This document shows positions 4,546 to 32,808 of a stretch of 32,808 nt of DNA, piece after piece. The stretch comes from a virus: the IMG/VR virus record IMGVR_UViG_3300042895_000322, positions 1 to 32,808 of that record, one strand, 5' to 3'. A program made the translations under genes and the position numbers. Below the pieces are notes generated by a model that was not told the origin of the DNA, ran no database searches, and saw only the letters and a list, made by a program, of their open reading frames with translations. Positions within the stretch are counted from its first letter, which is position 1. Each line of letters opens with the position of its first letter.

Positions 4546-4574
4546 AAGGGTAGTCAGAAATGGCTACCTTTTTT
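4546..4574 (+). terminator. Rho-independent terminator
   Basis: Stem GGTAGTC (4549-4555) and GGCTACC (4562-4568), one G-U pair, 6-nt loop, followed by a T tract. It closes the P1 operon and precedes late motif L2. Confidence 0.85.
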
Positions 4575-13312: not shown

Positions 13313-13340
13313 ACAAACTATAATAACTTTTATTTTAAAA
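13313..13340 (+). promoter_or_regulatory. Late-promoter-like motif L4 (scaffold and capsid)
   Basis: ACAAACTATA (13313-13322), 6 nt, TTTATTTTAAAA (13329-13340), the most divergent of the five copies but with the same spacing. It lies just beyond the P4 repeats, back to back with the minus-strand promoter and 29 nt upstream of the scaffold ATG. Confidence 0.5.
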
Positions 13341-21060: not shown

Positions 21061-21399
21061 ATGAGATATTTTCAAACTAAAAACGGAGTTACAATAGATG
21101 AAAATAGGAATATAATTCCTATGGATGAATCTAATGCAATATATCAAGAATATTTAGCTTTTCTTAAAGCAGATGGAACAGTTGAACAAACTGATTTGCT
21201 ATCTGATTTTGAAATTGATTTAGTTAAAACTGAAGCTATTGATAAATTAAAAAAAGAATGCTACAACGAACTTGCTTTAACTGATTGGTATTTTGTAAGA
21301 AAAATTGATATTGGTGTTGAAGTACCTAAAGAAGTTATAGAACAACGAAATGAAATAAGAAAAAAATATAATGATTTAATAAATGAAAACATATCTTAA
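21061..21399 (+). CDS. Putative tail fibre assembly protein
   Basis: 112 aa, starting one base after the fibre stop. The C-terminal half (YNELALTDWYFVRKIDIGVE, then VIEQRNEIRKKYNDLI) resembles the L-x-x-T-D-W-Y ... R-x-x-L-R pattern of tail fibre assembly chaperones. It probably helps the upstream fibre trimerise. It overlaps the holin gene by 17 nt. Confidence 0.6.
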   Translation: MRYFQTKNGVTIDENRNIIPMDESNAIYQEYLAFLKADGTVEQTDLLSDFEIDLVKTEAIDKLKKECYNELALTDWYFVRKIDIGVEVPKEVIEQRNEIRKKYNDLINENIS

Positions 21400-22684: not shown

Positions 22685-22736
22685 CAAATTGTTAATAACA
22701 TAGTTTTTTTTAACTCAATTTTTCTCTATAAATTTG
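22681..22736 (+). promoter_or_regulatory. Promoter for the GIY-YIG gene, with inverted repeat
   Basis: TAAATTTG at 22729-22736 matches TAnnTTTG. Upstream, TTAACAA-A-TTGTTAA (22681-22695) is a perfect 7-bp inverted repeat with a 1-nt centre, built from the same GTTAA core as the phased arrays but in opposed orientation. It starts at the stop codon of the spanin-like gene and marks the switch from late to early/middle genes. Confidence 0.5.
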
Positions 22737-23276: not shown

Positions 23277-23654
23277 ATGAAAGCTAAAACAAAATCACAA
23301 CTAGTAAAGGATTTAGATGCAGTATTTAGCAAGTATATTAGATATTCTAATGCTAAAAATGGATATTGCAAATGTATTACTTGTGATCGTGATTATGAAG
23401 TTAAAAAAATACACTGTGGCCACTTTATGAGTAGACAACATATGAGTACTAGGTGGGATGAAAGAAATGTAGCTCCACAATGTTATGGATGTAATGTAAT
23501 GCAACAGGGTAAACAATTTGAGTTTAGCTTAAAAATAGGAAAAGAACTATCAGAAGAATTATACTTATTAACTAAACAAACTAAAAAATGGAGTTTAGAT
23601 GAAATTAAAGATATGATAGAACAATATAAAGACAAATTAAAAGATATTTCTTAG
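23277..23654 (+). CDS. ninG: NinG-like recombination protein
   Basis: 125 aa. Zinc-finger/HNH-like core typical of lambda NinG: YCKCITCDRDYEV (Cys31, 33, 36), KIHCGHFMSRQHM (Cys47, His49, His55), RNVAPQCYGCNVMQQG (Cys69, Cys72), then helices (EELYLLTKQTKKW). In lambda NinG (Rap) is a structure-specific nuclease acting on recombination branches. It is shorter than lambda NinG but has the conserved core. It would work with the ERF protein at 24842. Confidence 0.8.
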   Translation: MKAKTKSQLVKDLDAVFSKYIRYSNAKNGYCKCITCDRDYEVKKIHCGHFMSRQHMSTRWDERNVAPQCYGCNVMQQGKQFEFSLKIGKELSEELYLLTKQTKKWSLDEIKDMIEQYKDKLKDIS

Positions 23655-24128: not shown

Positions 24129-24845
24129 ATGAAGTACACTTCAGGTATTTACAAAATTACAAACCCAAAAGGAGCTATTTATATAGGCAGTTCTAAACAT
24201 ATAGAAAAAAGATTTGCCCAATATAAAAACTTAAGAAGTAATGAACAACATAAATTAAGAAACTCTATAAATAAATATGGGTATGAAAATCATAATTTTG
24301 AAATATTAGAAGAATGCGAATTAAATTTATTATTAAAATTAGAAAGAGAATACTGCATTAAATATGATGTTTTAAATAGAAAGAATTTAAATTTAAAAAT
24401 ACCTAAAACTGGAGAAAATCAAAAGTGTTTTTCTGAAGATGTTTTAATTAAAATGTCTAAAATACATAAGGGTAAAGAAATAAGTTTAGAAACTAGAAAA
24501 AAAATATCTTTAGCTAATACAGGTAAAAAAAGAACTGAAGAAACTAGATTAAAAATTTCTATTGCTAATAAAGGAGAAAAAAATTCTATGTATGGCAAAA
24601 CACCAAAATCAAAAGGACAAAAGATGTCTGCTGAATTTTGTAGAAAAAATAGTGAAGCAAGAAAAGGTAAATTTTTATTAGGAGAAAACAATAATGCAAA
24701 AAAAGTTGTAGATTTGCAAACTAATATTATTTATGATTCTGCAAAAGAAGTATCTTTAAAATTTAATATAAATTATAGCACTTTAAAATCTTATCTAAAT
24801 AATAGATTATTTAACAAAACAAATTTTAAATATTTAAACAAATGA
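24129..24845 (+). CDS. GIY-YIG homing endonuclease with NUMOD repeats
   Basis: 238 aa. The nuclease domain is at the N-terminus: GIYKI (residues 6-10), YIGSS (18-22), catalytic Arg28, then LKLEREYCIKYDVLNRKNLN. Residues ~110-200 carry NUMOD3-like DNA-binding repeats (MSKIHKGKEIS, LETRKKISLANTGKK, KISIANKG). The C-terminus (SAKEVSLKFNINYSTLKSYL) is a NUMOD1-like helix-turn-helix. It is a free-standing mobile nuclease inserted between P2 genes and the ERF gene, with which it overlaps by 4 nt (ATGA). Confidence 0.88.
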   Translation: MKYTSGIYKITNPKGAIYIGSSKHIEKRFAQYKNLRSNEQHKLRNSINKYGYENHNFEILEECELNLLLKLEREYCIKYDVLNRKNLNLKIPKTGENQKCFSEDVLIKMSKIHKGKEISLETRKKISLANTGKKRTEETRLKISIANKGEKNSMYGKTPKSKGQKMSAEFCRKNSEARKGKFLLGENNNAKKVVDLQTNIIYDSAKEVSLKFNINYSTLKSYLNNRLFNKTNFKYLNK

Positions 24846-25715: not shown

Positions 25716-25749
25716 TTATCTAGTTATCCATTTTAAAGTATTATCTTTG
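25716..25749 (+). promoter_or_regulatory. Promoter with TTATCTAGTTAT upstream element (HNH gene)
   Basis: TTATCTAGTTAT at 25716-25727, 14 nt, then TATCTTTG at 25742-25749 (TAnnTTTG). The same 12-mer and spacing occurs at 27206-27239. It drives the HNH gene and possibly the helicase. Confidence 0.6.
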
Positions 25750-27205: not shown

Positions 27206-27239
27206 TTATCTAGTTATTAAAAATTAATTAATATATTTG
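27206..27239 (+). promoter_or_regulatory. Promoter with TTATCTAGTTAT upstream element (27244 operon)
   Basis: TTATCTAGTTAT at 27206-27217, 14 nt, TATATTTG at 27232-27239. The element overlaps the helicase stop region. The box ends 4 nt before ATG 27244, implying a leaderless transcript. Confidence 0.6.
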
Positions 27240-27561: not shown

Positions 27562-27742
27562 TATTTTAATATTAACACTTATAACTTGGGCAGTTTACTC
27601 AGGTAAAGAGTTACAATTTGCAATTATTCACGGCTTTATGGTAGGTTTTTTGTATGATGTAGATCAAGAAGAAGAAGAAAAATATCACACAATACAGGTT
27701 TTATTAGGAGTATTATCTATAAACATTCTATGGGAATCTTAG
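27545..27742 (+). CDS. 65-aa membrane protein
   Basis: An N-terminal transmembrane helix (MISLISILILTLITWAVYSG), a second hydrophobic stretch (FAIIHGFMVGFLYD), an acidic cluster (DVDQEEEEKYH) and a third (VLLGVLSINIL). Overlaps genes on both sides (17 and 13 nt). Not recognised. Confidence 0.55.
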   Translation: MISLISILILTLITWAVYSGKELQFAIIHGFMVGFLYDVDQEEEEKYHTIQVLLGVLSINILWES

Positions 27743-28242
27743 AACAAGTTGCAAAACACCACGATTATTTTGTAGAATTAGCTTCGGTATTTGATAGCGA
27801 ATTTGCAGAAGATATCGTGCAAGAATTTTACTTATTGTTACATAAATACAAAGTAACAGAAGAACAAATGTTTACTAATGGCAAATTAAATAGAGGTTAT
27901 TGCTTTATTATTATAAGAAATATACACTTTCAAATTTACAATATTAAGAAACGAATAGTAAAATGCGAAATAAACGAAGAAATTTATAATTTGATTGATG
28001 ATTTTGATATAGAAAAAGAGTTAGAATGGAATAACTTTAGAACTAAAGCAGAATCAGAAGTAAACAACTGGGATTGGTACGATAAAAAACTATTTTCTAT
28101 TTATAGAGATTCTAACATAAGTATTAGAGGACTAGCAAAAGAAACAGGAATAAGTTTTGTAAGTATATTCCACTCACTAAAAAAGCATAAAGAAAAACTA
28201 AAAGAACTATTAAAAGAAGATTACGATAACTTAAAACTATAA
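27730..28242 (+). CDS. Sigma-70-like RNA polymerase sigma factor
   Basis: 170 aa. The N-terminal half resembles sigma region 2: HHDYFVELASVF, FAEDIVQEFYLLLHKY and YCFIIIRNIHFQIYNIKKRI. The C-terminal half resembles region 4, with a helix-turn-helix (KLFSIYRDSNISIRGLAKET, then GISFVSIFHSLKKHKEKL). Size fits compact ECF/phage sigma factors. It would redirect host RNA polymerase. I infer it recognises the five TAnnTTTG-lacking late motifs, but nothing in the sequence proves that. It lies in the early/middle region, as expected for a late-gene regulator. Confidence 0.7.
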   Translation: MGILEQVAKHHDYFVELASVFDSEFAEDIVQEFYLLLHKYKVTEEQMFTNGKLNRGYCFIIIRNIHFQIYNIKKRIVKCEINEEIYNLIDDFDIEKELEWNNFRTKAESEVNNWDWYDKKLFSIYRDSNISIRGLAKETGISFVSIFHSLKKHKEKLKELLKEDYDNLKL

Positions 28243-28245
28243 ATT

Positions 28246-28617
28246 ATGGCAAAAAGAAAACCAAAAGGACTAGGTGATACTGTAGAGCAAATAACAACTG
28301 CTACAGGTATTAAAGCAGTAGTAGAAGCTGTATCAAAAGCTACAGGAATAGATTGTGGATGCGAGGGTAGAAAAGAAGTTTTAAATAAACTTTGGAGTTA
28401 TAGAAAACCAAATTGTTTAGAGCAAGAAGATATAGAATTTTTACTACCTTACTTTCAGTTTAAAAAAGAAACTTTAACCCCAAAAGAACAATGGAGAATT
28501 AAAGATATTTATAAAGCTGTATTTAATGAAGTAATACAAGATAGTAACTGTGCTAGTTGCTGGAGAGACACTTTGAACGACTTAAGAAAAGTTTACGAAA
28601 CTCAACAAGATGCATAA
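28246..28617 (+). CDS. Conserved-looking hypothetical Cys protein
   Basis: 123 aa. N-terminal KRKPKGLGDTVEQITTATG, a Cys cluster (IDCGCEGRKEVLNKLWSYRK, then PNCLE) and a second pair in SNCASCW. The spacing suggests zinc binding. A similar protein follows sigma-like genes in flavobacterial phages by my recollection; function unknown. It begins 3 nt after the sigma gene. Confidence 0.6.
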   Translation: MAKRKPKGLGDTVEQITTATGIKAVVEAVSKATGIDCGCEGRKEVLNKLWSYRKPNCLEQEDIEFLLPYFQFKKETLTPKEQWRIKDIYKAVFNEVIQDSNCASCWRDTLNDLRKVYETQQDA

Positions 28618-29763: not shown

Positions 29764-29814
29764 GTTAAATATTTGTTAAAAAGTTTTTTTATTTAAACAT
29801 AAGTTTTATATTTG
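29764..29814 (+). promoter_or_regulatory. Promoter P3 with two 11-bp-phased GTTAAA repeats
   Basis: GTTAAA at 29764 and 29775, 11 bp apart. TATATTTG begins at 29807. Distances are 43 and 32, one base longer than P1 and P4. It drives the operon 29838-31979, which ends in the heterogeneous repeat. Confidence 0.6.
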
Positions 29815-30813: not shown

Positions 30814-31037
30814 TGGATAAAGAAAGAATAGAAGAACACTTTAAAATAGCTTTGTATGAACTTGAAAACGGATCTACAATAGATGAACTAAGAGATATTA
30901 TTACAGAATATGAAGCTGTAGAAGATTACGAAGTTTGTGCTGGTATCTATCGAGCTATTGAAATGGTTTCTTTTATAACTTTAACTGTATTTGCAAAAGA
31001 ATTAGGAAGTAAAATAAGATTAAAATTTAAGAAATGA
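30813..31037 (+). CDS. Hypothetical protein before the DnaA-like gene
   Basis: 74 aa. Acidic helical N-terminus (MDKERIEEHFKIALYELENG), hydrophobic C-terminal stretch (EMVSFITLTVFAKELG) and basic end (KIRLKFKK). Overlaps the DnaA-like gene by 4 nt (ATGA). Its last 20 nt lie in the repeat, so the window start (1-19) holds the 3' end of the same gene in copy A. Not recognised. Confidence 0.6.
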   Translation: MDKERIEEHFKIALYELENGSTIDELRDIITEYEAVEDYEVCAGIYRAIEMVSFITLTVFAKELGSKIRLKFKK

Positions 31038-31471
31038 TTAAAGTAGAAATAAAAAATAAGATATTAAACACAATACAAAAAGTAACAGGAGTAGATATAA
31101 CAACTAAAACAAGAAAGTATGAGTTTATAGAAGCTAGAATGATATACTATAAACTATTAAGAGATAGAGGTTATTCATTACAAGAAATAGGAGATACACT
31201 AGATAAAAATCACGCTACAGTATTACACGGAATAAATGTATTTAACGATATTAAAGATTACGATAAAGATTTAAGAGAAAAGTATAGTGCAGCAATACAA
31301 TTACTAGCAGGAGAAAAAATAAGTAAATATATTACACCTGATGAATACGCTATAGAATTTGCATACTGGTTATTAAAAGATAGCGACCTTGTTATTATTG
31401 ATATAAAAGATTTACTAACTGAATTTAAAAAAGAAGTAGGATATGACACCACAACAATTAAACATATATGA
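31034..31471 (+). CDS. DnaA domain IV-like DNA-binding protein, copy B
   Basis: 145 aa, same as copy A up to residue 138 apart from silent or conservative changes (AVEF to AIEF). The last residues differ (DTTTIKHI instead of ECTKLI) because the sequence beyond ATG 31443 is different. It overlaps the NUMOD-like gene by 29 nt. Confidence 0.75.
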   Translation: MIKVEIKNKILNTIQKVTGVDITTKTRKYEFIEARMIYYKLLRDRGYSLQEIGDTLDKNHATVLHGINVFNDIKDYDKDLREKYSAAIQLLAGEKISKYITPDEYAIEFAYWLLKDSDLVIIDIKDLLTEFKKEVGYDTTTIKHI

Positions 31472-31757
31472 AGTAATAGATGTACTAAGAAAACAACCTA
31501 AGTGCTACCTTTGGGATAAACAATATAACCAATGGGAAAAAGATGACTTTACTTGCTTACAAACTATAGTAGATAATATTTACGATGGTAAGATAAAAAC
31601 TAAGAAAAGAAAAACAATAACAATACTATCACCAGAAAAAGAATTTTATACCTTTACTACCTATAAAGAAGCAGCTACCTTTTTAAAAGTTAAACTACCT
31701 GTAATATCAATAGCAGTAAAGAAAGGATATAATATTAATGGGCATAAAATAGTTTAG
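31443..31757 (+). CDS. Small protein with NUMOD/IENR1-like domain, copy B
   Basis: 104 aa. Same protein as 1293-1601 apart from the N-terminus (MTPQQL) and a few substitutions (VLSIAV to VISIAV). Its ATG occupies exactly the position used by the methyltransferase in copy A (426 + 31017 = 31443), so either gene is coupled to the DnaA-like gene from the same codon. Confidence 0.6.
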   Translation: MTPQQLNIYEVIDVLRKQPKCYLWDKQYNQWEKDDFTCLQTIVDNIYDGKIKTKKRKTITILSPEKEFYTFTTYKEAATFLKVKLPVISIAVKKGYNINGHKIV

Positions 31758-31760
31758 GGT

Positions 31761-31979
31761 ATGAAAATAATTGATATTAAAATTAAAAAAGCTACAATAT
31801 TATTACCAAACCTTAAAGAAGAAGAAATTACTTCTTATAAAATAATTTATAAAGAAAAATCAAAAGAAAAAACATTTAAAATGTGGACATTTGATAAAGA
31901 AACTAAACCATTTACAGAATATGAATTTATACAACATTTTAAAAAACAAAATAAATTTAAAAAAGTAAGATATGAATAA
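31761..31979 (+). CDS. Hypothetical protein present only in copy B
   Basis: 72 aa. Lys/Glu-rich, strand-helix pattern (MKIIDIKIKKATILLPN, EEITSYKIIYKEK, KTFKMWTFDKE). It is inserted between the NUMOD-like and membrane micro-protein genes with the junction at the next ATG. It overlaps that gene by 8 nt. Not recognised. Confidence 0.6.
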   Translation: MKIIDIKIKKATILLPNLKEEEITSYKIIYKEKSKEKTFKMWTFDKETKPFTEYEFIQHFKKQNKFKKVRYE

Positions 31980-32064
31980 CAAACAAGAAAGAATACTAGT
32001 AGAAATTAGTGCTTGGATAGCAGTAGCATCAATAATATGTTTAATAATATATAATACTATTTAA
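31972..32064 (+). CDS. 30-aa membrane micro-protein, copy B
   Basis: Counterpart of 1605-1697: MNNKQERILVEISAW, then a hydrophobic helix and IYNTI. Several conservative changes relative to copy A support selection on the protein. Confidence 0.6.
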   Translation: MNNKQERILVEISAWIAVASIICLIIYNTI

Positions 32065-32065
32065 T

Positions 32066-32290
32066 ATGCCAGATATAGCTATGTGCAAAGATACACTTTG
32101 TAAATCAAAAGAAACTTGTTACAGGTTTAAAGCAACACCTAACGAATATAGACAAACTTACATAATACCTAATAGAGAAGAAGATGCTATTAATTGTAGT
32201 AAGTATTGGGAGTACTGTAATAAATGCCACAAATTAAATGGAGTACACAAATTAAGTTGTTCAACACAAAAGATAGAAATAAGATTATGA
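32066..32290 (+). CDS. Cysteine-rich small protein, copy B
   Basis: 74 aa counterpart of 1699-1923 with all seven cysteines kept. Its TGA overlaps the ATG of the copy-B-specific gene at 32287. Confidence 0.65.
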   Translation: MPDIAMCKDTLCKSKETCYRFKATPNEYRQTYIIPNREEDAINCSKYWEYCNKCHKLNGVHKLSCSTQKIEIRL

Positions 32291-32487
32291 CACCAAAAGA
32301 AAAAGCAGAAGAACTATTTAATAAATACTATAGCTATTTAAAATCTAATTTAATGGATGATAAAGAAGCTATAGATGATGCTAAGCAATGTGCATTAATA
32401 GCAGTTGATGAATTAATAACATATGCTCATAATAATTATGATGCTAATTATTGGCAAGAAGTTAAACAAGAAATAGAAAAGTTATGA
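32287..32487 (+). CDS. Small helical protein present only in copy B
   Basis: 66 aa from ATG 32287, an ATGA overlap. A longer frame from 32224 lies in the Cys-rich gene and is less likely. MTPKEKAEELFNKYYSY, then DDAKQCALIAVDELITYAH, a pattern I recognise as frequent in small genes of Bacteroidota phages, function unknown. It is inserted precisely at the start codon used by the basic protein in copy A. Confidence 0.65.
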   Translation: MTPKEKAEELFNKYYSYLKSNLMDDKEAIDDAKQCALIAVDELITYAHNNYDANYWQEVKQEIEKL

Positions 32488-32657
32488 CAGCAAAAGAAAG
32501 AGCAGCAAATTATATGAAATTAAAATCAGGATATAAACAAACTCCTTTACAAAGAATAAAAAGAGTAATTAACTTCTACTACAATAGAGGATGTAATAAA
32601 GAATCTGTAAACGATATTTATAGAAAGATACTTAAACAAAAATTAAATAAATTATGA
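32484..32657 (+). CDS. 57-aa basic small protein, copy B
   Basis: MTAKERAANYMKLKSGYKQT then the C-terminus shared with 1920-2063. Ten residues longer than copy A through an N-terminal indel. Confidence 0.55.
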   Translation: MTAKERAANYMKLKSGYKQTPLQRIKRVINFYYNRGCNKESVNDIYRKILKQKLNKL

Positions 32658-32785
32658 AATATATAGAACAATACATATTGCTTTCAGTTTTAGGAATAGT
32701 AGTTATACTTGGATTAGCTTTAATATTTACTTTGTATTTAGTTATATTAGAACAAATAAAGATTAGATCTAATTATAGAAAATGA
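32654..32785 (+). CDS. 43-aa membrane micro-protein, copy B
   Basis: Near-identical to 2060-2191 (one visible change, ILIS to ILLS). Confidence 0.6.
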   Translation: MKYIEQYILLSVLGIVVILGLALIFTLYLVILEQIKIRSNYRK

Positions 32786-32808
32786 TTTAACAATTAGCTA
32801 TTTATATT

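Follow-up and report, generated by a model that had tools for sequence, protein, structure and literature searches.

Positions 27730–28242 (plus strand, ATG start) of a 32.8-kb IMG/VR virus record, the whole of which was analyzed here (hereinafter the window), encode a 170-aa divergent sigma factor of the ECF type that comprises regions 2 and 4. We consider it very likely that this phage protein, expressed from host-type promoters, directs the host core RNA polymerase, which it is predicted to bind, to bipartite late promoters whose boxes have diverged in concert with it. Specifically, the sigma factor would be made in the early/middle phase from host-type TAnnTTTG promoters, with the element TATATTTG at 27232 serving its own operon; it would then bind the host core RNA polymerase and direct it to late promoters comprising a −35-like AACAAWT, a 16-nt spacer after ACAA and a −10-like TWATTTTTAAA. 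The late operon heads thus served would be those of the terminase, tail/structural and portal genes, and in this manner the virus probably reprograms the host RNA polymerase to make its particles.

The initial annotation had described a compact protein with region 2-like and region 4-like parts, and profile and structure comparisons bear this out. The window protein matches phrog_1740 ("RNA polymerase sigma factor"; E 1.5e-5, residues 7–166) and the NCBIfam sigma-70 family TIGR02985 (E 2.1e-6, residues 19–160). Taken alone, it shows no Pfam match above cutoff and misses the curated cutoffs of TIGR02985 (28 bits vs 126.4) and TIGR02937 (16.7 vs 42.9); hence, we call it ECF-type and divergent. 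Its homolog gp33 from Nonlabens phage P12024S clears the Pfam Sigma70_r2 cutoff (25.2 vs 24). Across a 34-member alignment of the family (A3), 33 members match the NCBIfam sigma70-ECF model TIGR02937, 25 match phrog_1740 and 14 match Sigma70_r2. A search of the PDB with the family profile recovers ECF sigmas; phmmer with the single window protein against the same database returned nothing meaningful.

Two AlphaFold models (pLDDT 72 and 84) retrieve exclusively ECF sigmas as their top Foldseek matches in the PDB, with probability ~1 despite distant sequences (11–17% identity), and the named top matches among viral structures are phage sigma factors. The whole-chain TM scores are low and the rmsd values high because the linker is flexible, as expected of free sigma factors. 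Region 4 alone, a helix-turn-helix at approximately residues 116–160 (28075–28209, plus strand), superimposes on isolated ECF region 4 structures with TM 0.7–0.8 and rmsd 1.3–2.5. Region 2 (approximately residues 11–75; 27760–27954, plus strand) matches sigmaE region 2 complexes and contains the signature AEDIVQE, which we take to be the expected β′-clamp contact motif. With regions 1.1 and 3 absent from its 170 aa, the protein shares the two-region anatomy, size (~160–190 aa), profile matches and fold of cellular ECF sigmas such as SigE, SigW, SigH and SigL; it differs from them in being phage-borne and in that the −10-like box associated with it, TTTTTAAA, is not CGT-type. The ECF sigma of GAP52, from the phage 7-11 subgroup, is a weak fold match (E 0.04, rank 35). 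A chain of an RNA-guided transcription complex, 9n9q_C, also sits among the ECF sigma matches.

Such a compact protein might alternatively be a sigma-derived DNA-binding activator that, in the manner of ArpU/RinA, works with the host holoenzyme instead of replacing its sigma. Activators of that type sit ahead of terminase genes in other phages, as does the gene considered here, and one relative (G004) carries a second copy consisting of region 4 only. However, ArpU/RinA-type activators are devoid of sigma region 2, which is present and conserved here together with its AEDIVQE motif and is modeled with the highest confidence (pLDDT ~90–96). Moreover, both promoter boxes described below are phage-specific, which an activator acting on a host −10 would not need. 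We accordingly regard an activator as improbable, and favor a true sigma factor.

Almost every gene of the window lies on the plus strand. Its terminase is 55–56% identical to those of Nonlabens phages P12024S and P12024L, and its portal 36% identical to that of P12024S. The contig ends repeat each other (1–2214 vs 31018–32808, i.e., the first 2.2 kb against the last 1.8 kb, at 91–99% identity with gaps), so that it can be treated as circular; the repeats probably arose because the circle was closed over a strain variant. It thus divides into an early/middle segment (22.7–32.8 kb) followed by a late one (~2.2 kb to 22.7 kb). TAnnTTTG, the consensus of the host −7 element (PMC6847099), occurs in intergenic gaps at 22729, 23265, 23770, 25742, 27232 and 29807, and is scarce across the late half. 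These plus-strand elements include TAAATTTG where the early/middle segment begins (22729–22736), TATCTTTG at 25742–25749, and TATATTTG at both 27232–27239 and 29807–29814. The copy at 27232 closely precedes the sigma operon and is its candidate promoter. Both the placement of the sigma gene in the early/middle region and the use there of host-form promoters, as proposed in the initial annotation, are therefore upheld. With phage-specific promoters heading the late operons and host-type promoters for the early genes, the layout is that of phages with a late sigma of the 7-11/phiEco32 kind. The early region also harbors a GIY-YIG/NUMOD3 homing endonuclease gene (24129–24845), immediately before the ERF recombinase gene.

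The proposal that the late genes have their own non-host promoter motif likewise holds. This block, first spotted by reading the gaps between genes, takes the form ACAA-N16-TTTTTAAA, with four exact copies on the plus strand of the window and none on the minus strand, against a chance expectation of 0.17 for both strands together in dinucleotide shuffles. The four candidate promoters lie upstream of the terminase small subunit gene (L1, 2196–2223), gene 4617 (L2, 4582–4609), gene 11736 (L3, 11698–11725), and gene 15628 and the portal gene (L4, 15592–15619), all on the plus strand. A variant with a 15-nt spacer, ACAA-N15-ATTTTAAA, upstream of gene 13370 (13313–13339, plus strand), is also found in three relatives (G001, G003 and G004); it and the four exact sites are presumably the L1–L5 of the initial annotation. 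A hairpin plus T run resembling an intrinsic terminator precedes two late gene heads, 4617 and 15628; the former hairpin (4549–4574, plus strand) lies just upstream of L2 and is kept in relatives.

Clades A and B comprise 18 genomes with sigmas 69–97% identical to that of the window, and 17 relatives with sigmas in this range carry the motif ahead of the same genes; L2 occupies the same place in 18/18 clade A/B genomes. Over these genomes there are 65 spacer-16 matches on the plus strand vs 3 on the minus strand, and spacers other than 16 give background counts only, both in the window and in the 18 genomes. Across the late sites of the relatives, the box letters are fixed and the spacer letters variable, and two columns that were not used in site selection, T17 and A19, are invariant in 50/50 distinct clade A/B sites. 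Word enumeration performed without the motif as a prompt returns it as the top gapped pattern in clade A and among the top ones in clade B, with the host TATATTTG element beside it; P12024S and clade C3 yield another pattern. The shuffles, strand bias and spacing control together rule out a chance AT-rich match as the origin of the motif. The motif also persists ahead of terminase genes only ~30–36% identical to that of the window: G003 keeps it exactly, and G002 and G014 keep a form with one change (ACAA to ACAG).

Where the sigma is only ~25–45% identical, other boxes stand at the same late gene heads. Clade C3 (G018, G019, G042 and L089) displays AAAA-N14-CGTTATA at 3–6 sites per genome, all of them on the plus strand. 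P12024S has AACA-N16-CGTTAAT boxes, with AACA-N16-CGTTA found at six plus-strand sites (147, 2999, 5380, 21249, 25169 and 26770) and one minus-strand site. Further versions are CGTTATA in G024 and G026, ACAA-N14-CATTTATATA at two sites in G027, GGTTTT or TGTTTTTAAAT in G020, G029 and G030, and ACAA-N13-GAGTTAT in G021, with the boxes of some of these diverged clades resting on two or three sites. An AAC-type −35 with a CGT-type −10, which resembles the promoters of ECF sigmas, is present in P12024S and roughly in C3 and others; the window clade has ACAA as its −35 but TTTTTAAA as its −10. The strict motif of each clade is essentially absent from the others, and the T-type boxes fall on one branch of the sigma tree, whose long deep branches, like shared descent, limit the weight of this grouping. 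These patterns suggest that the sigma and its promoter boxes diverged together across the phage family, a pattern that shared descent would likewise give.

Far from being confined to the single phage treated in the initial annotation, the sigma is found in a whole family of flavobacterial viruses with cultured members. Close relatives (69–100% identity) are common in viral contigs, and a profile search of terminase-selected contigs uncovered diverged homologs upstream of the terminase (21–43% identity in A3). The gene is present, with gene order kept, in every related contig seen spanning the locus, including the cultured Nonlabens phages P12024S and P12024L (Inhavirus), whose gp33 and gp35 match the A3 profile with E ~2e-21. 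Their records describe these merely as hypothetical proteins "containing Sigma-70 region 2" and leave the promoters undescribed. P12024S gp33 occupies the same position ahead of the terminase as the window sigma and has its own six late promoters, differing in the CGTTAAT box that replaces TTTTTAAA. A tblastn search with the window sigma matched no phage record, and none of 118 candidate stretches from bacterial genomes carried the gene, leaving no prophage or host source among them.

The co-occurrence of gene and motif, which the initial annotation had named as a check, is borne out, and was also approached from the motif side by picking contigs by motif, not gene, and then searching them for the sigma. 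Among the motif matches listed, the three longest family contigs spanning the locus all carry it, and no contig demonstrably has the motif without the gene. The six examined motif contigs lacking a sigma match (G054–G059) are fragments whose ends fall at or short of the sigma segment; G056, for instance, runs out within the DnaB-like gene 26297 and has its start in gene 28610. Other exact matches outside the family, among those listed, fall mostly inside coding sequence and form no repeated promoter set. Conversely, Riemerella RAP44, Bacteroides BS-TP2, Olleya Harreka and G023, which have just a related terminase in common with the family, carry neither the sigma nor a promoter set.

These distributions bear on whether the motif might instead be read by a host factor, be it a variant of SigA or one of the host's ECF sigmas, possibly aided by an activator from the phage, with the sigma-like protein acting otherwise. 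Bacteroidota hosts have many ECF sigmas, and the clade A/B box TWATTTTT is partly like the host TAnnTTTG element. Yet the invariant host G-5 is missing from 50/50 clade A/B sites, in which ACAA is invariant instead; CGTTA boxes unlike the host element occupy the same gene heads in other clades; and the motif sets accompany the gene, being absent from terminase-sharing phages without it. Hence, we give a host reader little credence and posit that the phage sigma itself recognizes these promoters.

The boxes also stand at characteristic distances of 12–19 nt from the start codons, and the initial annotation did not foresee the resulting prediction of start sites at or next to the AUG. In the clades with CGTTA or CATTT boxes, the box C usually lies at a fixed ~12 nt before the ATG (12, 12, 12, 11, 12 and 12 nt in P12024S; 12 nt at three sites in G024 and at two each in G026 and G027). 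The distance in C3 is mostly 12–16 nt, with 41 nt at the terminase site. In the window clade, A19 is 15–19 nt before the ATG at 3/4 gene heads, and the terminase site of clades A/B is 49–62 nt from its ATG. At ECF promoters, transcription begins ~11–13 nt past the base that opens the −10 box. Together, these spacings predict that late transcripts begin at or a few nucleotides before the AUG, such that most late mRNAs would be leaderless or nearly so.

Proximity to the start codon raises the alternative that the TTTTTAAAATAAA-ATG block serves translation, as an A-rich, Kozak-like Bacteroidota initiation region, and not as a promoter. Three of the four window sites end 5–10 nt before the ATG, and translation in Flavobacterium johnsoniae is sensitive to the presence of A at −3 and −6 (PMC6847099). 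This alternative is nevertheless hardly credible and we reject it: an invariant ACAA precedes the block at a constant distance of 16 nt, the terminase site is far from its ATG, the block appears at few gene heads only, often right after a terminator-like hairpin, and other clades carry unrelated boxes in its stead. Retaining the promoter interpretation, we note that 87% of the transcripts in the probable-promoter set of F. johnsoniae have leaders longer than 10 nt (PMC6847099). It is an evenly balanced proposition that Bacteroidota phage ECF sigmas, with promoters locked ~12 nt before the start codon, yield leaderless late structural mRNAs in hosts whose own are mostly leadered, and that at these shared gene heads the sigma and promoter alphabets have changed specificity jointly on several occasions. 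If true, these phages would supply a set of natural variants from which the ECF promoter code could be read, and the constant distance between box and AUG opens leaderless translation in flavobacteria to direct testing.

The precedents offered in the initial annotation, the phage late/middle sigma factors T4 gp55 and SPO1 gp28, hold for a phage sigma switch in general, but neither is the closest relative. Promoters of T4 late genes have no −35 box and depend on a sliding clamp as co-activator. Given that the window protein is ECF-type, gp36 of phiEco32 and gp47 of phage 7-11 are closer precedents. These are late sigmas that redirect the host RNA polymerase, with early genes using the host sigma; the 7-11 late promoter is bipartite with a 16-nt spacer, and the motifs read by the two diverged sigmas differ while occupying similar places in the genomes (SaPh711_gp47; PMC8948821). 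The present system parallels them in its predicted phage sigma, bipartite promoter with a 16-nt spacer, and diverged sigmas paired with different motifs. Unlike those enterobacterial podophages, whose promoters read GTAAtg-16-aCTA or tAATGTAtA, it belongs to a separate family of Bacteroidota phages, with other promoter sequences and boxes 12–19 nt from the AUG. Our literature search, covering sources other than the original P12024S description, found no account of this sigma/promoter system or of a sigma switch in Bacteroidota phages. If correct, our proposal would predict how a widespread group of phages switches to late transcription in hosts with promoters very unlike those of E. coli. P12024S and P12024L offer a cultured test case, and possibly orthogonal sigma/promoter pairs would aid in working out the basis on which ECF sigmas select −10 and −35 boxes.

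No anti-sigma was recognized in the window. Directly downstream of the sigma gene is a conserved gene for a 123-aa Cys-rich protein (28246–28617, plus strand; phrog_32048, of unknown function) with the motif GLGD..E..TxATGI..DCGC..RK..LN. It lies at most one gene from the sigma in 25/25 genomes where both were called, and its product is a possible sigma partner or co-regulator. The region-4-only copy in G004 (23416–23628 in plus orientation, 70 aa, 38% identity) directly follows the sigma and might modulate or compete with it. In P12024S (L034), the late promoter at 21249 lies one small gene (gp34) past the sigma, ahead of the homolog of the Cys-rich gene and the terminase, and late transcription in that phage would accordingly begin right after the sigma gene.
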